DNA of 64,000 nucleotides. Source: Heloderma charlesbogerti (lineage: Eukaryota; Chordata; Lepidosauria; Squamata; Helodermatidae). The stretch lies in NCBI GenBank assembly GCA_026122225.1, contig JANEZZ010001901.1, positions 62,001 to 126,000 on the forward strand. The letters are read 5' to 3'. The notes under the pieces were generated by a model, which did no database searches, was not told the DNA's origin, and saw only the letters and a list, made by a program, of their open reading frames with translations. Of the stretch, positions 965 through 57,728 are shown in pieces; positions within the stretch are counted from its first letter, which is position 1, and every line of letters begins with the position of its first letter. The position numbers were made by a program, and so were the translations under genes.

Positions 965-3900
965 TTATGTCCGATTGCTTTCTTCTTCTAGCACTGGATC
1001 TTCTGAAGGTCTTTTTGCCACAGCTGCTCTTTCTTCTTCCATGCCCTGGATGGCATCTCTAAGGAGCTCTGGAATATGTTGATGGGATGCAGGCAATGGG
1101 GGAAAGTGATTTCCTCCAGTGGAGTAGCTATCCGTAGTGGGTTGTTCAACATGAGGACCTGGTCCAAAGGAGTTACCTGTACTGAACTGACACCAGGACA
1201 TCGGATCAGGATGCTGAAATGTCTCAGAATTTCCAGTTTCTGGAGGGTCTTTGTTATATAGACTATTACCTTTGGTCACCGTAAGGGGCCCAGATTGTGA
1301 AAACTGATGTGGGCTGTTGATCTGTGTGAGGTTTTCTGATGAGTTCAAACCAGAGCAAGGTTCATCTTTCATTTGCACACTTCCTGTGTCCAAATCAGGA
1401 GTGGGCTGTGGATCTCTTCCCTGCATGTTTACTGATCTGTCTACTCCCACAGAAAATAAAAGCATATCTGGTACCGGATAGCTCCAGTCTAATAATTGAG
1501 CCTCATCTTCTCTGGAAGGGCCTAATAAAGAAATATTTCTAGCCTTTGGCTCCACATCTTGACTATCTAAACTGGCCACTTTAGGGAACTTACGTAGACA
1601 TTGATCATAAAGATCACCTCTAGAGGCAACATTTATTTCAGAGTTGGTTTCCACCAAATTGGCTGCAGGACACTGCAACATTTGCTCTGTAGTTGGTAGA
1701 GAATTCTGAGAGTTGTCAAATGGTGAGGCCGTGCCTTGGTCCCCAAGTACAGTTTCCATATTCAAAATGGATTGTTTGGGAACTTCAAGGTTGTCCATTC
1801 CAGATAATGCTTCAATGCTGCTTGAAATATCTATGCCCAGTTTTGTAGATAATGTATTGCCACCAAAGGCTTTAGCACTGTCCAAGGATGGAGAACTATT
1901 TCTTTGCCCATTGCTTGAGTGGCTTCCATAATTCTCCTCTGGATCCTGTAGGCCTGCATCTGAAGTTCTTGTCTGAATAAAAACTTCAGAGGTATTCTCT
2001 TTCTTGTAAGTGCCAGGCTCTAACTGGTCTTTATCACTTGCTTCCTCTGAAGGCTTTGCTAATGGTTTTCCTAGCCTTTCCTTCTGATTTTTGCCTTTAT
2101 CCAAAGAGTATCCAAATAATGTAGCTAAGGCAGATGGAGACTTATGTGCTTTCTTAGTCCCTGCTGCTGGTTCCTGCTTGGGAGAACTACCTTGAGTTTT
2201 GAGAGCAAAAAAGTGAGCCAAGGGATTCCTTTCTTTTTTTAATGGTTGCTTTCTGGCAGAATAAGCTGCACTACCTTTACTGCAGATTGCCTGCACAGTC
2301 AAGCCATGATCACCCTGAGGTTTCATATCCACATTTATATTTCCTGTCACTTGGTTTTCAGTCCAATATGGGACCTCACAGGAGCTGGATGCTTCTGGCT
2401 CTTTGACCTGTGGAGTAGGAGCCTGGGGGATGGTCCTGCCAGAAGCACCTTCCTGGAGCTTGAGCTGAATATCATTTTCACTGCTGGCCTTTCTTGGCAA
2501 TTCTCCATCTGTGATGGCTGTTTTTACAGGTGAGCCACTTGGTTCTGGGTTTTCATAAGCAGACACTGTTGTGTTGCAGGTCAAAGTGGCATCTTGTGGG
2601 TTATTTCTGGGTGGAACGTCCATATTTTCAGGGTCACCTGCTTGTGAGCTGGATACTGAAAGGCCACCTTCCATTTCTGCTCCTACAGCAGAAGAGATGT
2701 CTCCCCCTTCAGGTTTGGTGCCTTGGGAGGCCTGATCAGAAATGCAGTTGAGAATCTCAAAGCCATCTGATATTCTTCCTGGCTGCATTTCTTTCTCCTT
2801 TTTAACCTCTACCTCCTCACTGTGGGTTTCAGGATAAAGTTGGTTTTCTGGTGGTCTCCGCAGACTTGCTGAGTACATGATTTGCCTTTGTTCCTCAGGA
2901 AACTCATTCCTGCTTACCCAAGACAGTTCACTTCCCTGCTCAGTTGTCAGGCACATCTCCACTGAATCAAGGTAAGAAGCTGACGTTGTGTTGTCATGTT
3001 CTTTTTTATTGCTTTTCTCCTCTTTGTGTTCAGGTAGGTATACTGAAGCTTCAGGCTTACCCTGGGAAGGGTTGGGACCTTCCATTGGTGCAGTGTTGAT
3101 GTGACTCAATTGTTCCACCTCTTCAAGTACCAGATTAATCAGTTTGTTACTCTTGCTGGTTTCTGGAGGCTTCCTCTTCTGTTTGCTGTCTGGTGGTGGC
3201 AATGCAGGTAACTTCATCCTGGCTCTAGGAAGGGGTTCAGTTCTTGCCAAAATCTGCTTGCCATACCTTCCATCAGATGTATCCTTGCTGGAAGAAGATC
3301 TGATAGACTTCTTATCCATAAAAGGAACTTTGGCAAGACTAGAAGGATCAGCCACAGCAACTCTCATAGCAGCAAAATGAGTTACTTTCTCAGTTCTAAG
3401 TGCTTCTGAGTGGCAGGGCATTGAACCAACAGATAAAGGCTTTGGAGGGATTGATGTTAAAGGTGAGACCATGGGGACACACCTCTTCCATTTGAGTGAG
3501 TTGTGTTGGAGTATCATGGCCTTTTCTGATATGCTGTGTCCTTGTTTTCTTGCCTGATCTCCGAGGATGCTTTCATCCATGAACAACAGTCTCTTTTCCA
3601 ACACTCCCAGATCCCCATTCCCACCCATTGTTTTAACCCAGTGTGAAACCTGCTTCCCTTTCTTTGGAAATGTGACTCTGGGTAATTGGCTCTGCTTCTT
3701 TTCCAACTGAGCCGTTTCTGCTGTTGACTTATCTTCCAGGGCCTTGTGAGGTTTCTCATCTGCTCTGTTTTGTCTGTGCAGACTCAGTATGGGATCTTGA
3801 AGTGGTTTCTTGGTTGTTCTGGGTCTGTAATGTTTTCTGCCTGTGTCATCTTCAGCGGCTTCTTTTAAAGGTGGCCAACTGGTTCTGGCCAACTGGTTCT

Positions 3901-4190
3901 GTGAGGCTTTCTCACTGCTTGGTTGCCTTGCTTGCTTGGGTGCTCTCAGGCTAACCTGTGGATGTAAACCAGAAAGCCTTGGTTGTATTTTCTCTCTAAT
4001 CAGAATCTTTCCGGACTGACTACTTCTATTCTTAGACTCCAGCGCTAGAACTGGAGGCACTCCTATCTGTAGCTCCTGATGCTTTTGACAGATGCTGGCA
4101 TCTTCCTCTTGGCTCCCTTTAACCTCAGCGAGCAGTTTATAATGAACTTTGCAATAGAACGCATTGTTGATGGTTGTGTAGTTGAGCAAA
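965..4190 (-). CDS. Last coding exon: second half of LIM domain plus long tail (XIRP/EPLIN-like)
   Basis: The exon begins after a good acceptor (TTTCTGGTGTTTTGCAG) at 4190 and runs open for about 1,074 codons to TAA at 967-965. With two bases from the 4664 exon it completes a LIM domain: ...KLS + LLNYTTINNAFYCKVHY supplies the last Cys and His zinc ligands. The following KGSQEED...QKHQELQ lines up with the KGNYDEGFG..QHKELW block of LIMA1, LIMD2 and XIRP2. About 105 residues in, a WPPLKE motif resembles the WPP motif after the LIM domain of LIMA1 and XIRP2. The rest is polar, Ser/Glu/Pro-rich and probably disordered. Over 1,000 codons without a stop argues for real coding. The longer ORF to 4240 reads through the intron. 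LIM proteins of this family act on actin; the role here is inferred. Confidence 0.85.
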
Positions 4191-4663
4191 CTGCAAAACA
4201 CCAGAAAGAATATTGTTACTGCATTCGATCCACAACACACGATTCCATCACACCAAGAAGAAAACCCAGGTGGGAATATGCAGATGAAAGGGTGGGGATA
4301 AGCAGGTAAGGATTAACTGGATTGCCAGTAGCCCCCATTTAATTCTACGGGACAAAATAAATCTAAAGCTAAAATCTGGGACACCACTGAGAGAAGACAA
4401 AATCCTTCTCCCACAATAAACACTGGGGTCATCAGGAGCATGTTTAGCTCTCTCCAGTGGCTGCTGAATGCAGCCTTTTCCCCATGTGAGTGAATGGCAG
4501 CCATTCCTTTATATGAGAGAAATTAAAAGCAACAACCACCACCCTGAACAAAGGCAGTCTTGGGGACAAAGTTGGGGAAGAACTATTTAAGGCTGAATTC
4601 TTTTTGAAGAACCCATGTCTGTGTGCTTGCTCCACTGTTTCCCACTTAGGTCTCGTGGCTCAC

Positions 4664-4788
4664 CTTAGCTTCCTCCCACAGTGCTTGCAGCAGAAACATG
4701 CGTGGTGCAGTGGAACATTCTGGACGGTCATGCGCTCTGCTGTATAGACAGGCTTGGAACATATTGCGCACTCTTCCTTCACTCCACC
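4664..4788 (-). CDS. First-half LIM zinc-finger exon
   Basis: This 125-nt exon lies between an acceptor (CTTGTTATTTCAG) and a donor (CTAAG|GTGAGC). It reads ECAICSKPVYTAER, a spacer, then HHACFCCKHC. That gives C-x2-C, 17 residues, H-x2-C, C-x2-C and C-x2-C, the canonical LIM ligand pattern. It starts in phase 0 and ends with two bases (AG). These join T of the next exon as AGT (Ser), restoring KLSLLNYTTINNAFYC, with the 17-residue spacing expected before the final C-x2-H. The 473-nt intron to the next exon has no other feature. The SKPVY...CF.C..C context is closest to the LIMA1/XIRP2 LIM type. Because its start phase is 0, it can follow the 23972 exon directly, the candidate 22573 exon, or an internal donor of the giant XIRP1 exon. 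Confidence 0.88.
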
Positions 4789-5300: not shown

Positions 5301-5309
5301 ATTGGTCCA

Positions 5310-8300
5310 CCCCCCTTCATGGATCACTGCCTTGTTGTGGCGAAGGGGCTTGCGTAACTCAGTGAAGCCATAAGCTATGCCGTGCAGGGCCACCCAAGAC
5401 GGACAGGTCATGGCAGAGAGTTCTGACAAAATGTGGTCCACTGGAGAAGGAAATGGCAACCCACTCCAGTATTCTTGCCAAGAAAACCCCATGGAACGTA
5501 TCACAAGGCTAAAAGAGATGACGCCGGAAGATGAGCCCCTCAGGTCGGAAGGTGTCCAATATGCTACTGGGGAAGAGCAGAGGGTATTTCCAAGTAGTGC
5601 CAGAAAGAGTGAAGCGGCTGGGCCAAAGCCGAAAGGACACTCAGCTGTGGATGTGTCTGGTGGTGAAAAGAAAATCCGATGCTGTAAAGAACAATATTGT
5701 TTAGGAACCTGGAATGTCAGATCAATGAATCAAGGTAAGCTGGAGGTGGTCAAACATGAGATGGCAAGATTTAACATCGACATCTTGGGAATCAGCGAAC
5801 TAAAATGGACAGGCATGGGCGAATTTAATTCAGGTGACCATCATATCTACTATTGTGGGCAAGAATCCCTTAGATGAAATGGAGTAGCACTCATAGTCAA
5901 CAAAAGGGTGGGAAAAGCAGTACTGGGGTACAATCTTAAAAATGATAGAATGATCTCAGTACGAATCCAAGGCAAACCATTCAACATCACAGTAATTCAA
6001 GTCTATGCCCCAACCACTGAGGCCAAAGAAGCTGAGGTTGATCGGTTCTATGAAGACCTACAACACCTTCTAGAACTAACACCAAAAAAAGATGTCCTCT
6101 TCATCATAGGGGATTGGAATGCTAAAGTAGGAAGTCAAGAAATCACCGGGATAACAGGCAGGCATGGCATTGGTGTACAAAATGAAGCAGGACAAAAGCT
6201 AATAGAGTTTTGCCAAGAGAACATGCTGATCATAGCAAACACTCTTTTCCAACAGCACAAGAGGCGACTCTACACATGGACGTCACCAGATGGTCAATAT
6301 CGAAATCAGATTGATTATGTCCTTTGCAGCCAAAGATGGAGAAGCTCCATACAGTCAGTAAAAACAAGACCTGGAGTTGACTGTGGCTCAGATCATGAGC
6401 TGCTTCTTGCAAAATTTCGGCTTAAATTGAAGAACGTCGGGAAAACCACTAAACCGTTCAGGTATGACCTAAATCATATCCCTGATGAATATACAGTGGA
6501 GGTGAGGAATAGATTTCAGGGATTAGACCTGATAGACAGAGTGCCTGAGGAACTATGGACGGAGGTCCGTAACATTGTTCAGGAGGCAGCAACGAAATCC
6601 ATCCCAAAGAAAAAGAAATGCAAGAAAGCCAAGTGGCTGTCTGATGAGGCTTTACAAGTAGCTCACGAAAGAAGGGAAGTGAAAAGCAAGGGAGAAAGGG
6701 GAAGATATACCCAACTGAATGCAGAGTTCCAGAGAATAGCAAGGAGAGACAAGAAGGCCTTCTTAAATGAACAATGCAAAGAAATCGAGGAAAACAACAG
6801 AATGGGAAAGACTAGAGATCTCTTCAAGAAAATTGGAGATCTCAAGGGAACGTTTTGTGCAAAGACGGGCATGATAAAGGACAAAGAAGGCAGGGACCTA
6901 ACAGAAGCAGATGAGATTAAGAAGAGGTGGCAAGAATACACAGAAGAACTATACAGGAAAGATCTGAATGTCCCTGATAGCCATGATAGTGCGGTCACTG
7001 AACTTGAGCCGGACATCCTCGAGAGTGAAGTCAAGTGGGCCTTAGGAAGCATTACTAACAACAAAGCTAGCGGAGATGACAGTATTCCAGCCGAGCTATT
7101 TAAAATCCTAAAAGATGATGCTGTTAAAGTGCTGCATTCAATATGCCAACAAATCTGGAACACTCAACAGTGGCCACAAGACTGGAAAAGGTCAGTTTAC
7201 ATTCCAATTCCAAAGAAGGGCAATGCCAAAGAGTGTTCAAACTACCGCACAATTGCGCTCATTTCACATGCCAGCAAGGTGATGCTCAAAATCCTACAAG
7301 CTGGGCTTCAGCAGTATGCGAACCGAGAACTACCGGAAGTACAAGCTGGGTTTCGAAGAGGCAGAGGAACTAGAGATCAAATCGCCAACATTCGCTGCAT
7401 CATGGAGAAAGCAAGAGAATTCCAGAAAAACGTCTATTTCTGCTTCATTGACTACGCTAAAGCCTTTGATTGTGTGGATCACAACAAACTGTGGCAAATT
7501 CTGAAAGTGATGGGAGTACCAGACCACCTTACCTGTCTCCTGAGAAACCTGTACGAGGGTCAAGAAGCAACAGTAAGAACCAGACATGGAACAACCGATT
7601 GGTTCAAAATTGGGAAAGGAGTACGACAAGGCTGCATATTGTCACCCTGCTTATTTAACTTATATACAGAGTACATCATGAGAAATGCCGGGTTGGATGA
7701 ATCAGAGGTCGGAATTAAGATTGCTGGGAGAATTATCAACAACCTCCGATATGCAGACGATACCACCCTAATGGCAGAAAGCGAAGAGGATCTCAAGAGC
7801 CTCTTGTTGAGGGTGAAAGAGGAGAGTGCAAAAGCTGGTTTGAAACTCAACATTAAAAAAACGAAGATCATGGCATCTGGCCCCATCACTTCCTGGCATA
7901 TAGAAGGGGAAGAAATGGAAGCAGTGACAGATTTTACTTTCTTGGGCTCCAAGATCACCGCAGACGGTGACTGTAGCCATGAAATTAAAAGACGCTTGCT
8001 CCTTGGGCGGAAAGCTATGGCCAATCTAGACAGCATAGTAAGAAGCAGAGACATCACCTTGCCGACAAAGGTCCGTCTAATCAAAGCTATGGTTTTCCCA
8101 GTAGTAATGTATGGCTGTGAGAGCTGGACTATAAGGAAGGCTGAGTGCCGAAGAATTGATGCTTTCGAACTGTGGTGCTGGAGAAGACTCTTACGAGTCC
8201 CCTGGACTGCAAGGAGGTCAAATCAGTCCATCCTAAAGGAAATCAACCCTGACTGCTCATTGGAAGGACAGATAATGAAGCTGAAGCTCCAATATTTTGG

Positions 8301-8529
8301 CCACCTAATGCGAAGAGAAAACTCCCTGGAAAAGACCCTGATGCTGGGAAAGACTGAAGGCAAAAGGAGAAGGGGACGGCAGAGGATGAGATGGCTAGAT
8401 AGCATCACGAATGCAATGAATATGGACTTGAGCACGCTCCGGGAGAGAGCGGAGGACAGGAAGGCCTGGCGTGCTATGGTCCATGGGGTCACGAAGAGTC
8501 GGACGCGACTGAACGACTGAACAACAACA
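5310..8529 (+). mobile_element. Full-length BovB (RTE clade) LINE with 9-bp target duplication
   Basis: The 9-mer ATTGGTCCA occurs at 5301-5309 and again at 8530-8538, immediately bracketing a 3,220-bp element. That is about the usual full length of BovB. The element begins with a C-run and TTCATGGATCACTGCC, carries one long ORF, and ends just after it in an ACAACAACA tail. It lies antisense to the XIRP1 locus, in the intron between the giant exon and the LIM exons. BovB is a non-LTR retrotransposon known for transfer between squamates, ruminants and other animals, thought to be carried by ticks. The intact length and clean duplication suggest a fairly recent insertion. Confidence 0.93.
5377..8520 (+). 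pseudogene. BovB endonuclease-reverse transcriptase ORF, one in-frame stop
   Basis: A single reading frame runs from ATG 5377 to TGA 8520 and is interrupted only by TGA at 5875-5877. The N-terminal part is an apurinic-type endonuclease: GTWNVRSMNQGK at the start, GDWNAKVG near 6110, and SDHELLLAKF near 6390. The reverse transcriptase follows, with SNYRTIALISHASKV, FIDYAKAFDCVDH, GVRQGCILSPCLFNLY and the catalytic LRYADDTTLMA (about 7745). The C-terminal region includes FELWCWRRLLRVPW. The stop follows an Arg codon where the BovB family reads Arg-Asn-Gly, so a CGA-to-TGA change at a CpG is the simplest cause. Without that stop the frame would be about 1,047 codons. It cannot make full-length protein as it stands, but the downstream 870-codon frame keeps the whole RT. 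Confidence 0.9.
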
Positions 8530-12947: not shown

Positions 12948-15900
12948 CTATTTCTTTGCTGGCTTGGAGTTGCTAAAAGTGACAAAGACCACTCCTGTAT
13001 CCTGGTGCCCACCATTGGACTGGAAGTCTGCTGGGCTGTTGAGGTATCTACGAAGGATTGGAGATGCAGTCACCTCATATCTGGTAGGGCAGGAAGCCAT
13101 ATCGCATGTGGAAGAGGTTTGAGTCTCTGACTGTTTGGTGACAGTAGTGGATGAAGTGATTATTTTGTTTCCAAACTTGTCCACCTCCTCGTACTGCTCA
13201 GTCACGGTTCTGGTAGCTCCATAGAGCTTGGATCCATCAGGGCTTGTCTGAAGTTCTAGTATGCTTTTCTGCCTCCTTGGATTTGATGGGCTTAGAGCAC
13301 TCAAAGAAACTTTGGACAATGTGTCCCGATCCTTATCGCTGTTGCTGCCAGTGTGATGATGGAGTTGCTCAGGACTGCTGAGATGTTGTTGCTTAATTAA
13401 ACTTGCTCCTTTCTTCATCTGAATGAGCTCCTCCTGTTCACCTTCACAGAAGGCCAAGTTGCAGCCGTCGGACCTCACTGATTTGCGCGGCAATGTGCTA
13501 AAAATGTCCTGAGCGAGTGTTTCCCTTTCTGTTGTAATTTCATTGTAATTGGATGAGGGAGAGTGTGCCATTTTGGGTGATTCTGCAGTTTTCCGTGCAG
13601 CAGACTGAATGGAGATGTAGGAAGGAGAAGGAGAGCTTGCTCGGGGCTGAATGATGTGGGGAACCTCCAGCTCTACTTTGGGCATCTCTTGCTTTTCTTG
13701 CTCCCTTTCACCTTCCCAGGATGAGTTCTGCATTCCTCTCTCTTGTTTGGCTTTGCTGGAGACAATGCTGATTTTGCGAATGTTGTTGCCGGCAGCAAAG
13801 CTCTGAGAATTCCCAAGAGACTCCTTGAGAAGTCCTGAGAGTCCGGCTATGTCTGATTCAGATTTCAGGCTAGAAATGGAACACAGAGCTTTCCTGATGG
13901 CCTCTTCAATGTCCAGAAGTCTGCTCAGTGTCTGTTCTTTTAAGTGGATGATCTCAGCACTTGCTCTCTCTAGATCTTCAAAAGCTAACTCAACAGAGGA
14001 AACACTGTCCGAATCTTCCTTTACTTCCTTCATCTGCTCAGCCTTTTCTATTGTGGGCTGCTTCGTTTGGTGAATCTTGTGATGCACCACCCAATCAGGG
14101 ACATTCTCAAACAAGCTTCTCAAGGCTTTCACATCCACCTTAGAGGTTTCCTCCTCAAACTCCTTCACGCGGGTTAGAATTTCCTGGAGCGCCTCCTGCC
14201 TTCGCAGGTTCTCAAATATCTCCATGGCTTCCTTGACATTGCCTTTCATGATCTCCTCCTTGTGGACAGACAGTCTCTTGCGACGTTCATCTTCGGTTTC
14301 TCTGCAGTTTTTTTCCCGCATGACCACCACCTGCTTCTCCTTCTCTGTGTTTTGTTCAGTCTTCATTTCTGGGCCTCTTGACCCCTTGCTGTTCATAAAT
14401 TGATGCCCTTTAAAGAACTGCTTTGATTGTAAAGATGAAGATGCTGAAACAGCAGCTTCTGAGATCTCTTTTTGTGTTTTTGGACTTGTTCTCAGGTTAT
14501 CCTTTGAACCTGAAGATCCAGGTGAGCCAATACTTTCTGTCTCTGATGATGAGGCATGTGTTGTGACCGTTCCTTTCCTCAGAATATTGGCGTGGCACTT
14601 TGCAGAGAGATATGCCTTCCTCTGACCTTCCAGGTTAGCAAGACATGTTTGGCTTCCAAGAGACAAAAGAGAGTCTTGCCCACCAGGCAATCCACATCTG
14701 TTTTCTTGTTGGCATGGGAATCCTTGGATTTCCATAGTTGGATGGCAGTTCCCTCCTTCACAGCCAGCCAATCCATTTTTTATTGCCTCTGATGAAGGCT
14801 TGTGGTCAGCCCCTTCCACTTTGCTCTTCTCTTCCTTCTTTGCCTTATACTTTTCTTCTGCTACTTGCAGAGGCGTCTTGACCATCTCTTTTATTGCTGT
14901 TTTCTCAGAATGAATGTCCTCAACAGTCATTGCCGCAAGCGACGGAGGCACAGGGAAGCCTGTTGGATGCTGTCTACATGCAGATTGCTCCCGTACCTCA
15001 GTCCCACAAGATGCGCACGCTTGGTTTGCAATGGGCAAAGTCTTTGGTTTGTTGTGCTCAACTGCGGCTGGAGTTTTGGAAGGGAATGGAGGGGGTGCTG
15101 CCTTTCCTGATGGCCCTTTGTTACAGCCAGTTGGGTGGTGGGGAAGTGCTTCCTTCAAAAGGAACTCTGGTTTGGGAGGTGGAACAGGTTTCTTCCTGGG
15201 TGGGGCAATAATGTCTGGCTTGGGGGGAAGTTGCGGCTTCTCTACAAGCCTCTGATCACTTGGTTTGGCAGGGGCAGGCAGCAGAATCTTAGGAACGGGT
15301 GGTTGTACAGGTGAGGAACACCCTACAGCATCAGCGTCTCTCTCTTTGGTTGAGGACGAGTGGCCTCCGGTTCTCATCACTGAAGCTGGAGGAGGAGGGG
15401 GAAAATCATTAAGAGCTTGTGAGTCTGTAGCCGCTACAGCAGCTGCCTGGTCACTAACAGACTGAGCCTCGTTTTTCTTTCTACACACGGAATAGGACTG
15501 CCCTGCATTCCTGTATATCATAGCTGCTTTAAAATCTCCTTTGGAGACATTAACGTTAGACTTTTCCAGGGACTCGAGCGTGGCTTTTAAGTTGCCACGG
15601 ACAACATCCTCTTTCTCTACTTGCCTCTGTTCTGTTGCGGCACTCTGCAGGGCTCTGATAGCTGTCTTTACATCTCCTCCAACTATAGCATCTTGCTCTC
15701 GTTCTTCTGGAACGGAGTGCTCTTTGTAATCGGACTCAATAAATGGATTTACATAGGACTTCACTGGCTTGGCAGCATAAAGGCCGTCCTTAATACTAAG
15801 ATCTGCACTAGGCATGAGGCGGCCATCTTGGCAGGCTGCAAATGGCAGCACGCCTCCCTGTACATCCTCGGAAGCACTGACCTTTGCAAGTGATGCCGTG

Positions 15901-18900
15901 CTCTTCTGAGACACGTGTGCATGGGACTTCTGGGAGGTCTCCTGCACTCTGATGAAGGTGACGTTGCTAGCTTGCTGTTGCTTGGTAGCTACACAGCCTT
16001 TTTTGTGTGCTGTGGATTGCATGGTCACTGCTGGGGGCTGTGCAGTGGTGGTGGTGAGCTGAATATCTTCTGTCGGCTTTTGCAGCTTGCTCTGGACTTG
16101 GTGCTGGAGGCTTTTAGCCTCTGCTGTGGCTAGTCTTAGACTCTGCATTGCTGCTTGGAGATCACTCCCGGGAGACTGCATTTTGGGTTGTGCTGTCATC
16201 TGGTTGATTCTCCCTACTGTGGAACAGTGGGAAGCTCTGGGCTTATCATCCTTCTGATCTGACACTTTGGTGGAGTCTGTTCCTTTCTTTTTATCTTTCG
16301 GGATTATTTCTTCTCTCACTACCCTGTTGCTACCGTTCTGTGCCTTTTGCACTGCCCGGATGTCTAATTTAACATTCCCAGCAACTACATTTTCTTTGGC
16401 TATCATTGGGGGTGGAGATTGCACAAGACAATGTGGAGTAGGTCCTGGGACACTCTCATGCATTGGCCCCCTTTCTAACGAACCTTCTTTGCTCTCACAC
16501 AAGAACACTCGCTTAGCCCCACTGCTAGCCCCTAGTATCACATCAGCTGTTGTGACCACTTTTTCCTCCTGTACCTTGGCAGGTACCGCAACCTCTTGCA
16601 CAGTTTTTAGTGGCTCCTCTTTTGCTTGGGAGGAAACTAGGGATTCTATCTCTGACTCCCTTTGGAGGTTCTTTAAGTAGTCGAGGTCTCCTTTCTCAAT
16701 GCAGCTGGTGTACAACTGGACGTTGCCTCTTTCGTTGTCCTCTCGTCTGATAGTTGCTGTTGCCCTGTGCTCTTGTGAAGAAGCCAGCAGGTTCCCAATC
16801 GTCGACTTTACATCACCCTTAACGAATCCGTGCTGCTGGGCAACACAACGAAGAGAATAGAAAGTCATCTTTACTGTTCCTGTCTCTGTCTCCTGCATAC
16901 TTATTCCTTTCTTGACTGAGGCATCTTCTTGACTAAGAAATTCCTGGAGAGTCTTCGCCACATCGTCCCTCAAGTCCTCTTTTCTTTTCTCTGCTTTGCT
17001 AGGGTCCAACAGCTGAACTGGACTGATTTTTATATTTCCATTCTCCTCTTCCTGCACCAACACCCCCTGGGCCTCCACATTGGTCCTCTGAAGTATCTGC
17101 AACAAGATCCTTTGCAAATTGCCTCCCATGACCTCTTCCTTTTGGATTTCTGGGGCTCCTTGGCTACTGAGTTGATATTTTGCCATCTTGACACTCTCGG
17201 TATCATTGGCTTCAATAAGGATGCCACTGTGTTGGATGACCAGATGGGAGAAGAGAACTTCCAAAGTGTATGTTATTGTTCTCTTTTTTACTTCCATTTC
17301 TGTGCAGTATTGAGAAGTGCTGAGTTTATCCAGAGGAGTGCTTTCAAACAACCATGTTGTGCTCTTGACGTTGGCCTGAGGAACCACCTCCAGGGGCTCA
17401 GCACTTGCAGAAGCCTCTGTGTCTTTGAGGCTGTCCATGGGCTGGGTCTCAAACAGCCAAGTGCAGCGCTTCACATCTCCTTTATGGATATTCTCTCTCT
17501 GTACAGTGCTCAGGTTGGAGGTGCTTTCAGATTCTCCTTTCAAGGAGTCAATAGGCTGGTTTTCAAAAAGCCAAGTGGATGTTCTTACATCCCCTCGCTG
17601 AACATCACTGACGCTAACCATCCTCACATACTTCTTTTGATTCAGTTGCTCTGACTCAAAGAGTTGCTTATTGGAGCGGACATCTCCCTTCTGCACATCA
17701 TCAACAGTCCTCAAGACTGGCCTCTTTTCATCAGCGATGGAATCTAGAGGCTCTGTTTCAAACCTCCATCTGGCCGCTTGGACATCACCCTTCTTGAAAT
17801 CCTCTTGGGTAACAGCCCTGATCACAAACACCTCTTCATTCTTCTTTATCTGATCCAAGGGTTTGGTCTCGAACTGCCATCGGGCACCTTTCACATCACC
17901 TTTCATGATTTCGTCCTTCTTCACAGACGTGACTTCGTGATAGCCTCCATCTTTGTCCTGGATGGCATACAGGGGCTGGGTTTCAAACAGCATGGTGCAG
18001 GATTTGACATCGGCTTTGTTCATCGTCTCTTCCTGGATTTTCTCAATTTGCATCTCATTCTCCTTGTCATGTATCTGACCTAGAGAGTAGGTTTCGAAAA
18101 CGAATCTTTTGCCTCCAACATCTCCACCTTGGATGTCCTTTTCAGGGGGCATCTCTTGAATACCCTCCATGCTGCTTTTCAAGGTGTCCATGGGACAGTT
18201 TTCAAAGAGCCAGGTAAACTTGTGCACTGCCCCTGCTTCAATATTTCCATCTGTTGGGATATCAGTTTTGTTTGTGGCTTTACTTGTTTTATCAACTGAA
18301 CCCAAGGGCTTGGCTTCAAAAAACTCCTTCACCCTGGACACTTCTCCAGACTGTATTTCCACACGACTGGAGTACCTGATTATTTTCTTTGAATCAACAT
18401 CACCAGTGATATTATTGATTAAGGGTTCTGTCTCAAATAGGTGTCTGACTGTTTTCACATCTACCCCGTGTAATTCGTCTGGGCAGTAGGCCTTGCTGAC
18501 CTGCAAATATTGCTCTTCCTGGCCTTTCAGGGAATCCAAGGGCTGCGTTTCAAACATCCACGTGCATGACTTAACATCAGTGTGTGGCATGGATTCTTCA
18601 CTGTCCTGCTTCTTCCCATCTTTTTCATATAGGGCACCAATTGGATGTGTCTCAAACAACCACCTGCAGGTCTTCACATCACCCCCTTGGGGAACATCTC
18701 CTTTCTCTAATACTTTCTGTTGCTCTTGGTTCATTTGGCTGTGGATGACATTGATGGGTTGCGTTTCAAAGAGCCACTTGGCTGTCTTGACATCCCCAGC
18801 CACCACTTCCTGCTTAGTGACACCCCTGATAATATCCACTTTTTGGGTACTATCATCAAACTGATCCAAAGGCTTGGTCTCGAACATCCATTTGTAGTTC

Positions 18901-20576
18901 TTAACATCTCCGCCAGTAACTTCCTCTTCTCTGCTCACAGAAGTGACTTTGTGGAAATTGCCAAAGCAGTCCTTGATGGCATACAAAGGTGTTGTCTCAA
19001 ACAGGAACTGATTGGCTTTAATGTTCCTGGGTGGTGTTTCCTCTCCTTCCTTGACAGCCTCCTCAGTGCTCACTTGTCTAATGCTATCTAAAGGGAGTGT
19101 CTCAAAGAGACTCTTGAAGGCTTTCACATCCCCTTTCTCCACCTCTTGTATGTTAGTGGTCGAGAAGTCTTCAGGGGGAGATTTGGAGATGCTGCCCAAA
19201 GGGCAAGTCTCAAAGACATGCTTCGTTTGTTTCACAGCTCCTTTCTCCTCATCTGAAAGCTCTATTTTCTTTAGATGCCCCACTTCAAAATTGTCCTTCA
19301 GCAATTCCATGGGTTGGGTTTCAAACAACCAGAGGGTTGATTTTACATCTCCTTTGATAACTTCTTCTTTGGCTGGGATGCTGTCAGAGGCTTCTCCTTT
19401 CAGAGTGTCAAGAGGCTGAGTCTCAAAAAGCAGGCACTGCTTACTGACATCGGCCCCTTGGATAAGATCTGGAGATGCCTGGAAGTCTGCTTCCTCCACA
19501 GTAAGCTCTCTTATGGCATCTAGGGGCTGAGTTTCAAACAGCCATTTCGCTCCACTGACGTTTCCCCTTGCTGCCTCCTCTAGCGATATCCCTCGGATGA
19601 CTTGCACTTTGGACGTATCCTTGTTGATGGTGTCCAGAGGCTGGGTTTCAAAGAGCCAACGGGCTGTCTTCACTGCATTGCTCTGTATTTCTTCTCGGCA
19701 GACAGATTTGATCTCATGGATGTTCCCTGTTTTGTCTCTGATCGCACAGAGGGGCTCTGTTTGGAAGAGCTTGATGGTTTTCTTGACATCGCCTTTGAGT
19801 TCTTGGATTTCTGACTTGAGTTGCAAGATGCTCTGCTCCTCCACCGAACTGCAGCGGCCCAAGGCATCTAAAGAATGGGTTTCAAAAAGCTGGGCAGCCC
19901 CTTTCACGTCCCCTCTCTGAACAGGCTCTTTGAGGACTGCCTCTTGTAACTCAGTTTCATCCAAATACATTTTGTTCAAAGAGTCTAGTGGCTGGGTTTC
20001 AAATAACCACCTAGCCGTGTGCACGTCATCTTTGGTGTGTTCTTTCTCAGATGCCTTGGCTGAAGCAAGCAGCCTCTCCCCATTGGTTGGCTGGCTTTCA
20101 AACCTCATGGATCTATTCTTCACATCTCCACTTGGGATGTTTTCCTCCTCGGTGAGCTTTTTGGCAGCTTGATGTTCTCCAATGGAGTCCAGTGTCCAGT
20201 TCTCAAAGATCCAGCGCATGGATTGAACCTCCCCTGGAAGCACCGCATCTAGATTCACTGCGGCCTGTGCATTGGGGTCATCTGTGCTCAGCATCTCTGC
20301 CAGATCCTCCGTCACAGCCTCTTCCAAATTTTTCCTGAGCTCTGGATGCATGTGGCGGTAGAGCCGCTTCAGCTCATTCACTTGACGCTGCTGATAGAAC
20401 TTGGAGAAGGATTCCTTAGGAGGAGGTAGAGGCAGTGGGTTGGAATCCTGGTTCCCAGTCACTGAAGCTGGGGCTGGAGCAGAATCCTGAGGGGGAGGAG
20501 GAGGGGATGGTGGCAAGTCCTCATCTGCCTTTTTGATGTTGGCTTTAGAGGACGTTTCATTCTGAGCTTCTGCCAT
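12948..20576 (-). CDS. XIRP1: XIRP1, Xin actin-binding repeat protein 1 (giant exon)
   Basis: A 2,542-residue ORF in one exon. ATG at 20576 is preceded by an acceptor-like TTTCCTTAG|AG, as expected if leader exons are non-coding. The N-terminus has a proline run and LPLPPPKESFSKFYQQRQ, then YRHMHPELRKNL, both hallmarks of XIRP1. Residues of about 100-1,110 hold 27 Xin repeats by my count, of the form GDVKTARWLFETQPLD; these bind and stabilise F-actin. Human XIRP1 has fewer; chicken Xin is of similar total length. Later come an FPPPPP EVH1 (Mena/VASP) ligand near residue 1,725 and PPKPD/PPPKPE SH3 ligands near 1,760-1,805. A charged helical stretch lies near 1,900. The conserved C-terminus reads EQYEEVDKFGNKIITSSTT. 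Xin localises to intercalated discs and myotendinous junctions. The reading frame is intact. Confidence 0.97.
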   Translation of the reverse strand: MAEAQNETSSKANIKKADEDLPPSPPPPPQDSAPAPASVTGNQDSNPLPLPPPKESFSKFYQQRQVNELKRLYRHMHPELRKNLEEAVTEDLAEMLSTDDPNAQAAVNLDAVLPGEVQSMRWIFENWTLDSIGEHQAAKKLTEEENIPSGDVKNRSMRFESQPTNGERLLASAKASEKEHTKDDVHTARWLFETQPLDSLNKMYLDETELQEAVLKEPVQRGDVKGAAQLFETHSLDALGRCSSVEEQSILQLKSEIQELKGDVKKTIKLFQTEPLCAIRDKTGNIHEIKSVCREEIQSNAVKTARWLFETQPLDTINKDTSKVQVIRGISLEEAARGNVSGAKWLFETQPLDAIRELTVEEADFQASPDLIQGADVSKQCLLFETQPLDTLKGEASDSIPAKEEVIKGDVKSTLWLFETQPMELLKDNFEVGHLKKIELSDEEKGAVKQTKHVFETCPLGSISKSPPEDFSTTNIQEVEKGDVKAFKSLFETLPLDSIRQVSTEEAVKEGEETPPRNIKANQFLFETTPLYAIKDCFGNFHKVTSVSREEEVTGGDVKNYKWMFETKPLDQFDDSTQKVDIIRGVTKQEVVAGDVKTAKWLFETQPINVIHSQMNQEQQKVLEKGDVPQGGDVKTCRWLFETHPIGALYEKDGKKQDSEESMPHTDVKSCTWMFETQPLDSLKGQEEQYLQVSKAYCPDELHGVDVKTVRHLFETEPLINNITGDVDSKKIIRYSSRVEIQSGEVSRVKEFFEAKPLGSVDKTSKATNKTDIPTDGNIEAGAVHKFTWLFENCPMDTLKSSMEGIQEMPPEKDIQGGDVGGKRFVFETYSLGQIHDKENEMQIEKIQEETMNKADVKSCTMLFETQPLYAIQDKDGGYHEVTSVKKDEIMKGDVKGARWQFETKPLDQIKKNEEVFVIRAVTQEDFKKGDVQAARWRFETEPLDSIADEKRPVLRTVDDVQKGDVRSNKQLFESEQLNQKKYVRMVSVSDVQRGDVRTSTWLFENQPIDSLKGESESTSNLSTVQRENIHKGDVKRCTWLFETQPMDSLKDTEASASAEPLEVVPQANVKSTTWLFESTPLDKLSTSQYCTEMEVKKRTITYTLEVLFSHLVIQHSGILIEANDTESVKMAKYQLSSQGAPEIQKEEVMGGNLQRILLQILQRTNVEAQGVLVQEEENGNIKISPVQLLDPSKAEKRKEDLRDDVAKTLQEFLSQEDASVKKGISMQETETGTVKMTFYSLRCVAQQHGFVKGDVKSTIGNLLASSQEHRATATIRREDNERGNVQLYTSCIEKGDLDYLKNLQRESEIESLVSSQAKEEPLKTVQEVAVPAKVQEEKVVTTADVILGASSGAKRVFLCESKEGSLERGPMHESVPGPTPHCLVQSPPPMIAKENVVAGNVKLDIRAVQKAQNGSNRVVREEIIPKDKKKGTDSTKVSDQKDDKPRASHCSTVGRINQMTAQPKMQSPGSDLQAAMQSLRLATAEAKSLQHQVQSKLQKPTEDIQLTTTTAQPPAVTMQSTAHKKGCVATKQQQASNVTFIRVQETSQKSHAHVSQKSTASLAKVSASEDVQGGVLPFAACQDGRLMPSADLSIKDGLYAAKPVKSYVNPFIESDYKEHSVPEEREQDAIVGGDVKTAIRALQSAATEQRQVEKEDVVRGNLKATLESLEKSNVNVSKGDFKAAMIYRNAGQSYSVCRKKNEAQSVSDQAAAVAATDSQALNDFPPPPPASVMRTGGHSSSTKERDADAVGCSSPVQPPVPKILLPAPAKPSDQRLVEKPQLPPKPDIIAPPRKKPVPPPKPEFLLKEALPHHPTGCNKGPSGKAAPPPFPSKTPAAVEHNKPKTLPIANQACASCGTEVREQSACRQHPTGFPVPPSLAAMTVEDIHSEKTAIKEMVKTPLQVAEEKYKAKKEEKSKVEGADHKPSSEAIKNGLAGCEGGNCHPTMEIQGFPCQQENRCGLPGGQDSLLSLGSQTCLANLEGQRKAYLSAKCHANILRKGTVTTHASSSETESIGSPGSSGSKDNLRTSPKTQKEISEAAVSASSSLQSKQFFKGHQFMNSKGSRGPEMKTEQNTEKEKQVVVMREKNCRETEDERRKRLSVHKEEIMKGNVKEAMEIFENLRRQEALQEILTRVKEFEEETSKVDVKALRSLFENVPDWVVHHKIHQTKQPTIEKAEQMKEVKEDSDSVSSVELAFEDLERASAEIIHLKEQTLSRLLDIEEAIRKALCSISSLKSESDIAGLSGLLKESLGNSQSFAAGNNIRKISIVSSKAKQERGMQNSSWEGEREQEKQEMPKVELEVPHIIQPRASSPSPSYISIQSAARKTAESPKMAHSPSSNYNEITTERETLAQDIFSTLPRKSVRSDGCNLAFCEGEQEELIQMKKGASLIKQQHLSSPEQLHHHTGSNSDKDRDTLSKVSLSALSPSNPRRQKSILELQTSPDGSKLYGATRTVTEQYEEVDKFGNKIITSSTTVTKQSETQTSSTCDMASCPTRYEVTASPILRRYLNSPADFQSNGGHQDTGVVFVTFSNSKPAKK
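13072..13076 (-). promoter_or_regulatory. Candidate internal splice donor near the XIRP1 C-terminus
   Basis: On the minus strand TATGAG|GTGACT falls exactly on a codon boundary after residue 2,501 (exon end 13074). The downstream LIM exon starts in phase 0, so use of this donor would keep frame and replace the last 41 residues with the LIM domain and its tail. The match to the donor consensus is moderate, and no transcript is available to me. Confidence 0.25.
20486..20520 (-). promoter_or_regulatory. Candidate internal splice acceptor in the XIRP1 proline run
   Basis: The codons for the proline run form a strong polypyrimidine tract ending CCCCCTCAG|GAT, with the first exon base at 20486. 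This is a codon boundary (residue 31), so phase 0. It matches the phase-0 end of the 23972-24132 exon, whereas the acceptor next to the ATG (20580-20579) would need a phase-1 upstream exon. It could therefore fuse the upstream exons to the Xin repeats in frame. Confidence 0.3.
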
Positions 20577-20578
20577 CT

Positions 20579-22815: not shown

Positions 22816-23127
22816 TGTTGGCATAATAGCACAGTTCTTTAAACCTATTGTTTCCAAACGTTCTGATCTTTCAGTTTCACTGTAGCCATAACTACATTAC
22901 AGACCAAACTGGTTTAACACTTATTCACTTCTTGCCATAGACTCCTGGGAACTGTAGTTCTGTGTGGCTAAACGGTGGATAGGGAATGAGGTGGACTAGA
23001 GAACAGAGAATCCTCCATAGCCTTGCCGACTATTATTCCTTAGATTCTTTGGCAGCATTCATGACAGCGATACAAACAATATAAGTTGTAGTGTGGCAGA
23101 ATCACCCCCAGATGTTTTTTGTATATC

Positions 23128-23971: not shown

Positions 23972-24132
23972 TCGTTTGGTCAGACCACCGTCGTGATCAG
24001 CAGCAGCAGCTGCCTGAGCCAGATAGAGAGCAGACCGCTCCTTCACAGAGGGGAAAGAGGATATCCTGTATCCTTGGTGAGGTATGTGGCTTCTGTCGTC
24101 TGAGTCGCCTAAAACTCCTGGTGTCCACTCAT
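23972..24132 (-). CDS. Upstream coding exon with VKER...LAQA motif (XIRP2/EPLIN-like)
   Basis: The 161-nt exon lies between an excellent acceptor (TGTCTGTCTCTGTTCCAG) and a consensus donor (AAACGA|GTAAGT). It begins with two bases of a split codon and then encodes 53 residues starting EWTPGVLGDSDD and ending DHDGGLTKR. The core SSFPSVKERSALYLAQAAA matches the S(I/V)K(D/E)R-x-A-x-Y-x-AA block found upstream of the LIM domain in LIMA1 and in the N-terminal exons of XIRP2. It enters in phase 1, matching the 48039 exon, and leaves in phase 0. That fits the LIM exon, or residue 31 of the giant exon, but not the acceptor beside the XIRP1 ATG. It is probably part of an alternative XIRP1 transcript. 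Confidence 0.78.
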
Positions 24133-48038: not shown

Positions 48039-48120
48039 AGTTGTTGACCTTCCTTGAAGTGTGCGCTGAAATGAGCTTTGTGGAAGGAGCCGCTGTGTTT
48101 CTCCTTGTGAGTTGTGCCTC
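48039..48120 (-). CDS. Upstream coding exon, 82 nt (EPLIN/XIRP2-like chain)
   Basis: An acceptor (ATTTTGTCACCTACAG) and a strong donor (AACAACT|GTGAGT) bracket 82 nt that are open in phase 0. They encode EAQLTRRNTAAPSTKLISAH and then TSRKVNN, leaving one base. That phase-1 exit is exactly what the 24132 exon needs, and the join gives ...NN-Y-EWTPG. The TSRKVNNY wording resembles the SGRKISENSY stretch that precedes the KDR block in LIMA1. On its own the exon would be weak; the phase fit and signals make it likely. Confidence 0.62.
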
Positions 48121-52829: not shown

Positions 52830-53231
52830 CTTCCTGCCATTCTTGTGCAAATGGGTGATGCTGCTCCCTTGTTCTCTTCTCCTGTTACCGCTGAATGGAG
52901 AAACGGGGTGGTCTGTTGGAGGCTTGAACTTAGAGTTTGGGTGATGGAGGGCTTCCATGTTGCTGGCCTTGATTTGGCTCTTCCCATGAAGATCAGAGGT
53001 AGATGTTTTGGGAAGGAATTCCACAAAGCTTGGTGAGGACCTGGCTCTTCCAGAGTCAAAGCTGGCCTGCAAAAAACACTTGTCGCTCATTGACGGTGGA
53101 CTTGTTCGGCAGAGGACAAGATTCTCCATAGATTTGTGCTGGGAAATTCTGCTATTGTTGCTTTGAAAAATGACCCATTCAGGGCCTGACCCATCTGCTT
53201 CCGTCTTCGGTAAAAACCTTTTCTCCTGGAT
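52830..53231 (-). CDS. Upstream coding exon, 134 codons
   Basis: An acceptor (GTCCTTTTTCCAATGCATTTTCAG) and a donor (GGCAGGAAG|GTGGGT) bracket 402 nt, symmetric in phase 0. The exon starts IQEKRFLPKTEADGSGPEWV, has KSMENLVLCR in the middle and ends THLHKNGRK. No stop interrupts it and the encoded protein is Ser/Lys-rich, like the disordered N-terminal parts of EPLIN and XIRP2. I see no domain. Its phases fit the 56840 exon before it and the 48039 exon after it. An alternative donor four bases later (GTGG|GTGATG) would exit in phase 1 and could skip the 48039 exon. Confidence 0.62.
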
Positions 53232-54802: not shown

Positions 54803-54914
54803 CATTTGAATGTGAGAGAAACTGAGATGGACAGATTCATCCGTTCAAGCCCAGGACTTGAGGAGTGCTTTGTTCTTAAAAGTCTGGGTTTGTATCCTCA
54901 TATATTCAGCCATG

Positions 54915-55043: not shown

Positions 55044-55469
55044 TGTAGTGCTGAATTAGGGTTGCCACCTCTTTTTTTCTGAGAGGCTCCTGACCTCTAC
55101 CAGCTGCATGGCAAGCAGGTGCAACATGGCCCTCTCCATGCTGGGAATAGCTGTACCTATTGAATTCAGCTGTTGCAGATGAGTGAGAATTTCATTTCAG
55201 TTTGTTTTAGATAAGAATTTTCACAAAGTTCTTCATATTCAGGAGCGAAAGAACGTGAGATTTTAAAAATTCGAAAGGAGGAAGCAAAAATGACAGATCT
55301 GCCCATCCCCAATTGCCCTGTCTCAAAAAGGAGACCATAAAGCTAGAAAAGGTGTAGAAATGGGCAGCCAAAATGGCTGGGAATTTTAAGGTGAGAAAAA
55401 GGACAAAAATGGGGGGGACAGGATAGAACTTTATACAATGATGCAAGGTGGGGAGAGGATGGAAATGGA

Positions 55470-55612
55470 GAGAGAACATTGACATGGTTCTGTGCCAAAG
55501 CACCTGTTTTTGCATGCCAAAGGCCCTGATTCAATCCGTGGCATCTCCAGGTAGGCTTGGGAAGAAGACTCCTGCCTGAAAACCTGGAGAACTGCTGCCT
55601 GTTAGAGTAGGC
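55470..55612 (+). repeat. tRNA-derived SINE-like repeat
   Basis: TTTGCATGCCAAAGGCCCTGATTCAATCCGTGGCATCTCC holds a box-B-like GATTCAATCC. AAGACTCCTGCCTGAAAACCTGGAGAACTGC follows, a body shared by squamate SINEs. Confidence 0.55.
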
Positions 55613-55614
55613 TA

Positions 55615-55752
55615 CCCTTCCCCAACCTGGTACTCGCCAGTTGTTTTGGACCAACTCCCACCAGCCCCAGCCAGCACAACTAATGGTCAGGAATTTTGGG
55701 AGTTGTAGTCCAAAACATCTGGTGGGCACCAGGTTGGAGAAGGCTGGTATAG
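55615..55752. repeat. Palindromic repeat family C (near-perfect)
   Basis: CCTTCCCCAACCTGGTACTCGCCAGTTGTTTTGGACC mirrored by GTCCAAAACATCTGGTGGGCACCAGGTTGGAGAAGG. Confidence 0.8.
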
Positions 55753-55755
55753 ATG

Positions 55756-56042
55756 CAGTGGAGGCTGGTGGCTCTAAGGTCAGTGGGGTGGTGAATCTGC
55801 TCCGAGTTGCAGTCAGAACTCTAAGGCAGCTATCCAGAGTGCTCAGCGCGCACACACACAGAGGGGGAGACACACACACACATACCAGGGTTTGTTTTAG
55901 CTGGGGTTGTGGACTAAGGGGTTAAGTCAAAGATTTCACATAAGAGGTGGACTGAACCTTGGAGAGCTCCTTTAGAGTTCTGACTGAAACCCGGAGTGGA
56001 TTCACTGCCCCACTGGCATTGGAGGCCCACCAGCCTCCACTG
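55756..56042. mobile_element. Foldback element family D with 8-bp target duplication
   Basis: CAGTGGAGGCTGGTGGC...CCAGCCTCCACTG ends, flanked by TATAGATG (55748-55755) and CATAGATG (56043-56050). The arms read GTGAATCTGCTCC and GGAGTGGATTCAC. The interior carries a CA-rich stretch. The 8-bp duplication and CAGTG ends indicate a hAT-type origin. Confidence 0.85.
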
Positions 56043-56839
56043 CATAGATGATACTGAGGTAGACAGACGCCACCTCTCCCCCGCCCCCGAAGATAATTTG
56101 TGATAGGTTAAGTAGGAAAGAAGGTTATTCACACACAACACAATCTGTGATACGGAGTATCACGGGATGTGGGGATGGCCCTTCACTTTGATGGCTTTAA
56201 AAAAAGGATGAGAAAGAATCGTGGAGGAGAGGGGAGGTCTATTAACAACTATTAGCTGTGACACCTAAACAGAACCTCCAACTTCAGAAGCCATCTACCT
56301 TTGCCAGCCAGCTGCAGATGGGCAAGCAGGAGGGGAAGTCTAATGGCTTCATGCTTTACTTGCAAGCTTCCCAGAAGTACCTGGCTGGCTGCTGGGGGAA
56401 ACCAGATGCTCAGTTCGATAGACTTGTGGTGCGATCCAGCAGGACTCCTCTTACGTAATTTAGAAAAATATGGCTAAGTGATGGGAAGTGACAGAAGGCC
56501 AGAGGGGTACAGAATCTCCATCCCCTGAAGCTTTTACTGCGTAAAAGTAAAAGCTTTTACTGCGTATGCCTTAAAAAAAAAAATCTCCATAATCATAAGG
56601 ACTAGAAGCTTGGCATTTCTTTCTTCTTATTTTAAAAAAAGAGAAAGCTGAGAATTCTCTGGATTCTGTGTTGGTTGTCGGATTCTGACCAATGGCCCTT
56701 TCCTTATACAGTGCGCCCCCAGCAAATTAGCCAGCTGAACTGGCACATGTAAGCTGGTTCATTTCTGCCTCATTTATAAAGACAGAGAGAGGCCAGTATC
56801 CTTTACTGTCTTATTTAAACCTCTTTGCCTACTGCTCAC

Positions 56840-56894
56840 CTTTGGCTTCTTGTCAGCTGTGGAAGTGTTTTCACCACCAGATATATTCTGATAC
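56840..56894 (-). CDS. Upstream coding exon, 55 nt
   Basis: An acceptor (TTTTCCTCTGTGTAG) and a donor (GCCAAAG|GTGAGC) bracket 55 nt. The first base completes a Trp codon begun by the previous exon; the rest reads YQNISGGENTSTADKKPK and exits in phase 0. With the preceding ...SSVSEIVRW this resembles the LIMA1 N-terminal stretch SSAIVEIFSKYQKAAEE, with the exon boundary falling within that motif. Support comes from signals, phase and this local match. Confidence 0.65.
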
Positions 56895-57106
56895 CTACAC
56901 AGAGGAAAATATGCCTCAGATGAAGTGAATGAACATATTGCAGGCATTCACCCAGGAGCCCTTCGGACACAGGTGCAGAACCTCAGCCTGGGGGCCAAAT
57001 CCAGCTTGCTTGGGTTTTCCAAATAGCCACGCCCCTTCCCTTGGCCCCACCCCTTCCCCCAACTGCCAATCCTTTGGTGGCTTCCTGGCATTCATGCATT
57101 TTTTTC

Positions 57107-57297
57107 TGGTGGAGGCTGGTGGCTCAGATGTCAGTGGGGCAGTGAATCCGCTCCAGGTTTTAGTTAGAACCAGTCAGAACTCTGAAGCAGCTATCCCTTG
57201 GATTTTAAAATCCCTTGGATAGCTGCTTCAGAGTTCTGACTAAAACCTGGAGTGGATTCACTGCCCCACTGACCTCGGAGCCACTGGTCTCCACTGT
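57107..57297. mobile_element. Foldback element family D (near-perfect palindrome)
   Basis: GGTGGAGGCTGGTGGCTCAGATGTCAGTGGGGCAGTGAATCC mirrored by GGATTCACTGCCCCACTGACCTCGGAGCCACTGGTCTCCAC. The central CCCTTGGATTTTAAAATCCC is itself a hairpin tip. Confidence 0.88.
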
Positions 57298-57494
57298 TTT
57301 TGTCCCATTTGAAAGGTCGAAATGCCTCTTCTAAGGTTTCGTTACTGAAGTACGAGCTTTAAGCTACAAGAAGGTAAAGGCTTCTCTGAAATGGAATTCA
57401 GCCTCACGGTGAAACACCGCTGGCCCATTACAGAGTAATGCTAGTATTGAAAGAGAACGGTGTGTTGTTGTCGTTTTAATTATGTACTGCTTAC

Positions 57495-57728
57495 CATCTC
57501 ACTATTTCAGAGACGGAACTCCTTCCCAGAGGTGCTGCTGTTCCAAAATTCTGTTTTCTCCCTGGAGACCCCAAAGTGCTAGAGAAAGTTTGGGAAGTGG
57601 GTGGTCTCATCACGTCTGAGCCCTTTTCCACATCAGCTGGAAGACTGCCTTGCATCCTCTCACCTGTTGGCACAGGACAGCATTCAGAAGCAGCCCTTGG
57701 CCACACCAGTTCAAGACATTCCAACTGG
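57495..57728 (-). CDS. Most upstream coding exon seen (5' end uncertain)
   Basis: The frame is open to a donor, GTGAGATG|GTAAGC, which exits in phase 2. The likely acceptor is the strong tract ending TTTTTGGTTTCTCAG (first base 57728); a weaker one lies at 57665-57664. Translation could start at the ATG for MQGSLPADVEKG. The end PLGRSSVSEIVR(W) resembles the SSAIVEIF stretch of LIMA1, which leads into the next exon's YQ. The rest is Ser/Gly/Pro-rich without a domain. The true first exon and promoter of this transcript may lie further up or outside the window. Confidence 0.55.

Follow-up and report, generated by a model that had tools for sequence, protein, structure and literature searches.

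A probable EPLIN-class LIM protein encoded around the giant exon of squamate XIRP1 and laid out like short XIRP2

Does XIRP1 of lizards encode, besides the Xin-repeat protein of its giant exon, a LIM protein of the kind known from XIRP2? The question is raised by a 64,000-nucleotide (nt) stretch of the genome of Heloderma charlesbogerti (contig JANEZZ010001901.1, here C1677, positions 62001-126000; hereafter the window), where a first-pass annotation had described seven further minus-strand exons around the XIRP1 giant exon. The giant Xin-repeat exon is shared with mammalian and zebrafish XIRP1, whereas the single-exon organization is not: the coding region of human XIRP1 is reported to lie wholly in exon 2 (PMC13267782) and zebrafish xirp1 is one large exon (PMC3280289). 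Our comparisons make it very probable that XIRP1 of squamates encodes an EPLIN-class LIM product in the arrangement known from short XIRP2. We also consider it well supported that, in a squamate XIRP1 of EPLIN-class layout, omission of the giant exon would give a LIM protein of ~1,400 amino acids (aa), the counterpart of short XIRP2.

All seven exons lie at the positions first given for them (Table 1). An AG stands directly upstream of each (7/7) and a GT directly downstream of every internal exon end (6/6), and the six donors and seven acceptors score within the top 0.6-9% of the strand's GT/AG sites on a simple consensus. Joined with the giant exon omitted, the exons make 4285 nt that stay open from the second base to the stop at 965, which bears out the earlier claim of usable splice signals and consistent phase. 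The length announced for this frame, about 1,427 codons including the stop, was right except that the stop comes in addition to the 1427 residues. From the base composition of these exons, with bases treated as independent (a rough model), ~77 stops would be expected in the joined frame and the probability of finding none is ~4e-35; for the five upstream exons alone, with their 311 codons, this probability is 3e-8. The frame used is free of stops in 7/7 exons, the terminal stop excepted. For the short exons 2, 4 and 6 a second frame is also free of stops, so that they say little when taken alone; in the long exons the other frames are not open. The seven-exon open frame is real and far exceeds what chance would produce. 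Exon 1 has a provisional 5' limit; alignment with alligator and turtle XIRP1 points to the ATG at 57655-57653 as the probable start codon, from which the protein would have ~1403 aa.

The identity of the gene as XIRP1 is secure on the basis of its relatives, in agreement with the first assignment. The open reading frame (ORF) of the giant exon matches the Pfam family Xin (PF08043) with 493.5 bits and 19 repeat matches, and the upstream exons match XIRP1 isoforms. Among the best 120 of 1188 relatives of the giant ORF, every model with a descriptive name is called XIRP1, the others being hypothetical, unnamed models or nameless. Rhineura XIRP1 comes first (81% identity over 100% of the ORF), followed by three lacertids (77-79%) and then by geckos and Varanus; the lizard giant exons in this set are 72-81% identical to that of the window. 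In a tree of the giant exon and 22 relatives, the window adjoins Varanus with a support of 1.000. XIRP2 was not among these best 120, so that the search gives no direct comparison of XIRP1 and XIRP2 scores.

The five upstream exons also appear to belong to XIRP1, because they match annotated turtle, crocodilian and bird isoforms and share four junctions with turtles. An N-terminal extension (>2,640 aa in total) is present in 31 of the same 120 relatives, which come from turtles, crocodilians and birds, one having no name; many other bird models and some turtle models are without it. The extension aligns with the five upstream exons of the window (SVSELVARYQSILDCES versus SVSEIVRWYQNISGGEN, plus KSMENL and PSVKERSALYL), and where exon 1 encodes SVSEIVR(W) the turtle, crocodilian and bird counterpart reads SVSxLVARYQ. 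The peptide PSVKERSALYL of exon 5 is identical in turtle XIRP1. When 126 proteins were compared, the same 31 matched the upstream region (E 2e-26 to 9e-5, identity 27-55%), and these matched it and not the LIM part. Junctions 1/2, 2/3, 3/4 and 4/5 coincide with the codons at which turtle XIRP1 isoforms branch, junction 1/2 splitting the same codon as theirs. Judging from these matches, the upstream exons are ordinary sauropsid XIRP1 exons, already contained in automatic annotation. Turtle, crocodilian and bird XIRP1 therefore resembles the window in its homologues of all five upstream exons and, in turtles, in the four junctions; it differs in that its gene models have an additional short peptide between the N-terminal exons and the giant exon, and no LIM form of 785-2497 aa was found.

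The upstream, LIM and tail exons look genuine and old, the last two because they are present in eight squamate species. Pfam LIM (PF00412) matches residues 318-370 at 32.6 bits (cut-off 22.9), and all eight zinc ligands, numbered in Table 1 by their positions in the joined frame, are intact in the window, which confirms that the LIM domain is complete; the WPP motif also stands where it had been noted, in the last exon after the LIM. This exon alone holds an ORF of 1,091 codons. The LIM or tail was matched by 8 of the 126 proteins, from eight species ranging from gecko to agamid (Podarcis lilfordi, P. raffonei, Lacerta agilis, Zootoca vivipara, Anolis sagrei, Phrynocephalus forsythii, Lerista edwardsae and Gekko kuhli), and LIM and tail are 43-56% identical between these and the window. 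One of the eight is named 'LIM domain containing 2', four are 'uncharacterized' and three 'hypothetical', and four of the models cover the LIM only partly. Of the four relatives with a whole LIM, three (P. lilfordi, Phrynocephalus, Lerista) have the full set of zinc ligands, as the window does. The LIM is the most conserved stretch, and a tail segment, KSPSALATLFGYSLDK (residues 1036-1051 of the joined frame), is nearly as conserved. The LIM protein and XIRP1 very probably share one chromosome in both Lacerta agilis and Zootoca vivipara, since each pair is found on contigs of equal size (56660093 and 59632304 bases, respectively). The Podarcis lilfordi model (P0001) splices part of exon 3, exons 4 and 5, the LIM exon and the last exon in the proposed order; exon 5 is thus contained in a LIM protein. 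RNA support for this model is possible, the annotation of P. lilfordi having drawn on Illumina RNA-seq, PacBio Iso-Seq, other proteomes and ab initio prediction (PMC10214862). On these matches the earlier statement that XIRP1 kept this layout in this lineage has to be divided: the upstream exons occur in turtles, crocodilians and birds as well, while the LIM and tail were found in squamates.

Snakes form a separate observation. None of the nine snake giant-exon models among the best 120 relatives matches the LIM or tail, and no snake protein appeared in the searches for LIM relatives. Snakes may have lost the LIM form; most lizard giant-exon models are likewise without a LIM.

As to the type of LIM, the best matches among solved structures in the PDB are LIMD2 (8.5e-19, 71 bits) and EPLIN (8.9e-14, 55 bits), with CRP1 third at 30 bits for its better domain. 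Searching the Heloderma genome with the LIM region returned four matches, namely three exons of the window and one locus on contig C1729, which we take to be LIMD2 because it is nearly identical to the letters of 2lzu. The LIM-internal intron falls at the same codon and in the same phase in the window and in this LIMD2 (K-L-(AG|N)-L, phase 2). Of two candidate acceptors for the LIM exon of the latter, the first, which is favoured by comparison with human LIMD2, would give a start in phase 0. A WPP motif after the LIM is a motif of the EPLIN class, so that LIM type, WPP position and shared intron all ally the window with that class. It differs in its poor Eplin motif, taken up below, and in name: the human EPLIN class was given as LIMA1, XIRP2 and LIMD2, a list from which XIRP1 is absent (Koch et al., PMC3305314).

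Within that class the layout is that of XIRP2. In mouse and zebrafish (xirp2a/b), Xirp2 makes a short form that skips the giant exon (PMC3280289, PMC10259482), and in mouse the LIM and C-terminal domain of this form are coded by exons 8 and 9, behind giant exon 7 (PMC10259482). There as in the window, and as the first-pass annotation had recognized, small upstream exons are followed by a giant Xin-repeat exon and then by LIM and tail exons. The LIM exon begins in phase 0 in both, six codons before the first cysteine in the window and, as read from a repair template, nine codons before it in mouse exon 8 (PMC10259482). The differences are that the gene of the window is XIRP1; that its tail has ~1,050 residues against ~470 in mouse, the tails being compared by length only; that the mouse long isoform also enters exon 8, in another frame; and that a squamate giant-exon isoform with the N-terminal exons was found neither in a scan of the window nor in any of 25 listed models. 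Open-licence PMC literature yielded no description of a LIM form of XIRP1, and the word LIM is absent from the main text of a 40-Xin survey that included Anolis carolinensis (PMC2478706).

Table 1 Exons and candidate splice site of the XIRP1 locus in the window
Feature	Position	Strand	Remarks
Upstream exon 1 of the LIM form	57495..57728	-	aligns with turtle/crocodilian/bird XIRP1 N-terminus
Upstream exon 2, YQNISGGENTSTADKKPK	56840..56894	-	junction 2/3 at the divergence codon of turtle isoforms (...QDNCK|)
Upstream exon 3, with HKSMENL and SFDSGRA	52830..53231	-	junction 3/4 GRK|EAQL matches turtle ARK|EVKL
Upstream exon 4	48039..48120	-	junction 4/5 NN|YEWT matches turtle GKR|FERT
Upstream exon 5, HIPHQGYRISSFPSVKERSALYLAQAAAAADHDGGLTKR	23972..24132	-	phase 0 at its end
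XIRP1 giant exon, coding part	12948..20578	-	ORF 12948-20576, 2542 aa
Possible intraexonic donor in giant exon, CPTRYE|GTGACT	13073	-	phase 0; Phrynocephalus model
LIM exon	4664..4788	-	phase 0 start; zinc ligands C318, C321, H339, C342, C345, C348
Last exon	965..4190	-	zinc ligands C366, H369; WPP motif; tail of ~1,050 residues; stop at 965

Several results weigh against a LIM product of squamate XIRP1 or against parts of this reading. The LIM of Gekko kuhli has one zinc ligand changed from H to P. The 22-residue Eplin motif, described directly after the LIM in the EPLIN class (PMC3305314), is poorly kept in the window and by eye appears largely eroded, sharing, without gaps, five residues (H, L, K, G, E) with LIMD2 of this genome. 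AlphaFold2 (AF2) gave no confident fold for the tails of five lacertid and Anolis sequences, Zootoca included (mean predicted local distance difference test score, pLDDT, 30.9; 0 residues >=70); the first of these sequences starts within the LIM and the whole LIM was folded in none of the five. The tail of the last exon is probably disordered. A LIM search with 138 residues among 159 candidates in the range of 785-2497 aa found 3 matches, all squamate, with limited sensitivity, as XIRP2 short forms were missed and proteins of <785 aa were out of range. On the 2.15-Mb contig of LIMD2, C1729, no sodium-channel locus of the Nav type considered below was found. Finally, no bridging exon that would join the upstream exons in frame to the giant exon was found in the interval 23971-20577, and the squamate-type giant-exon models among the matches listed start inside the giant exon in 25/25 cases.

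The last two points bear on how many proteins the locus makes. The scan for a bridging exon (23975-20560) considered AG..GT intervals of 30-110 nt that fitted in phase, kept an open frame and passed a polypyrimidine filter, and left 29 candidates, 5 of which were inspected. One of them, 67 nt long at 22929-22995, fits in phase and has no further support. A position-weight search with 15 distinct turtle, crocodilian and bird bridging peptides reached 6.8 bits at best, nothing above chance, where shuffles gave a median of 6.4 and a 95% level of 12.3 bits and true bridging peptides 39-54. Splicing exon 5 to the acceptor directly upstream of the giant ATG, CTGTTTCCTTAG|AGATG (TTAG|AGATG), would leave the giant ORF out of frame. 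Taken together with the missing bridging exon and the 25/25 internal starts, this suggests that the two squamate products may share no residue and that the locus may make two proteins without a common one. The earlier description of a skipped giant exon thus holds in that the frame is open without it; as no bridging exon was detected that would link the upstream exons with the giant one, 'two interleaved products' may be the better wording.

Carried further, these results lead to gene fission, in which squamates would have lost the bridging exon and an independent EPLIN-like LIM gene would hold the Xin gene inside one of its introns, the two proteins sharing not a single residue. This is a sharper form of our preferred explanation, and we put its chances just short of even. 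It accounts for the failure to find a bridging exon between 23971 and 20577, for the contrast between 25/25 squamate-type models that start in the giant exon and 31 turtle, crocodilian, bird or unnamed models that are joined, and for the annotation of 5/8 lizard LIM proteins apart from XIRP1. A diverged bridging exon could, however, escape detection, the 67-nt candidate does fit the phase, and the gene models are automatic.

Alternatively, the LIM and tail could chiefly form the 3' end of a protein that has both Xin repeats and LIM, made by splicing an internal donor of the giant exon to the LIM exon. The models of Lerista (P0016), Phrynocephalus (P0022) and Gekko kuhli (P0014) fuse Xin repeats to the LIM or tail, with three different exits. 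In the Phrynocephalus model the exit at CPTRYE corresponds to the codon at 13073 of the window, which has a GT at the same codon and phase, and the model, as a model only, continues into the LIM exon; intraexonic splicing has moreover been reported in XIRP1 of mammals and zebrafish (PMC3280289). Yet three models with three exits do not agree on a donor, and the Lerista model reads through the normal stop of the giant exon, as merged gene predictions do. Such a protein would also leave the conserved upstream exons and the exon 5-LIM junction of Podarcis lilfordi unexplained, and we consider it improbable.

Two further explanations are much less likely. That an unrelated LIM gene, a duplicate of LIMD2 or EPLIN, straddles XIRP1 by chance would suit LIMD2 being the closest solved LIM and one lizard annotation reading 'LIM domain containing 2', but it is very unlikely given that LIMD2 is located elsewhere, on C1729, that the upstream exons in the same frame are part of turtle, crocodilian and bird XIRP1 isoforms, and that the exon order copies XIRP2. 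Equally hard to credit are decaying relic exons without a product, which the missing gecko ligand and the eroded Eplin motif might recall, but which would scarcely retain a last-exon ORF of this length that has counterparts across eight species, gecko and agamid among them, or a LIM and a tail segment so conserved.

If squamate XIRP1 does encode a LIM product laid out like short XIRP2, where did the layout come from? The first-pass annotation had ascribed it to the ancestral Xin gene. Common ancestry of XIRP1 with XIRP2 is likely, so that this part stands, whereas a LIM form beyond squamates did not emerge from the 138-residue search. An origin of the EPLIN genes as four copies is plausible. 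On the human map, LIMD2 lies near SCN4A, LIMA1 near SCN8A, XIRP2 near SCN1A-SCN9A and XIRP1 near SCN5A. Using the Nav-specific domain Na_trans_assoc (PF06512), we detected two Nav-type loci on the contig of the window, at C1677:753455 and 869686, ~0.63 and 0.74 Mb away, and XIRP1 is thus linked here to a sodium-channel cluster, presumably of SCN5A type as in human. Other Nav-type loci are located on C184 (four) and on C186, C328 and C2616 (one each). The fullest version of this history holds that XIRP1, XIRP2, LIMA1 and LIMD2 are the four EPLIN copies of two genome duplications and that squamate XIRP1 retains the LIM, split into two interleaved products with disjoint residues; we advance it tentatively, as having a somewhat less than even chance.

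The four loci on C184, at 26, 214, 587 and 805 kb, have the orientation - + - -, which agrees with human SCN3A-SCN2A-SCN1A-SCN9A. XIRP2 and LIMA1 were not placed on C184 by 20 samples of 1.2 kb taken to the right of these loci, in which one uninterrupted ORF only was encountered; it has 400 residues and reads, by eye, as a reverse transcriptase.

A locus of five small upstream exons, a giant Xin exon, a LIM exon and a last exon with the end of the LIM and a long tail would yield two proteins. From the giant exon would come the classical Xin-repeat protein that binds actin, translated in squamates, it appears, from a start codon of its own, and without the giant exon a second protein would be made of the N-terminal region, the LIM and the tail. 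In mouse, short XIRP2 is located in stereocilia and needs LIM and tail to gather at actin gaps, and of the constructs tried on damaged stress fibres the isolated tail was recruited, whereas neither the LIM by itself nor the full-length protein was (PMC10259482). By analogy with XIRP2, the N-terminal part would bring the LIM form to actin, the tail or LIM would respond to strain on, or damage to, the filaments of muscle, intercalated discs or hair bundles, and the Xin form would work at junctions. The LIM form, presumably transcribed in Heloderma, would then act as an actin adaptor that senses damage or strain in muscle, heart or hair cells. Vertebrate genome duplication would have given rise to XIRP1 together with XIRP2, LIMA1 and LIMD2, and the LIM form would have been lost in mammals.

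If the LIM form is transcribed, lizard XIRP1 encodes a LIM protein that could not have come to light in studies of mammals, the LIM-less mammalian XIRP1 with its single coding exon would be a reduced state, and the EPLIN class would have a fourth vertebrate member. It would also allow testing whether both Xin paralogues shared the sensing of actin damage, and the public names 'uncharacterized' and 'LIM domain containing 2' would be corrected. The locus is a clear case for asking how one gene divides into two proteins.

The surroundings of the exons contain several other elements. An 870-aa ORF on the plus strand (5908-8520), located in the intron that separates the giant from the LIM exon, carries endonuclease and reverse transcriptase domains (Exo_endo_phos and RVT_1), by which we identify it as a copy of a non-LTR (long terminal repeat) retrotransposon. 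Directly upstream of exon 1, inverted repeats at 57835-58188 have arms of 99 nt (88% complementary) and 48 nt. The longest ORFs in the 62 kb to the left and the 130 kb to the right of the window read, by eye, as retrotransposons. About 34 kb to the left, an exon-like ORF at C1677:27085-27615, whose NCBIfam match reaches no better than E 0.024, resembles what we take to be an exon of an SLC22 organic-ion transporter.

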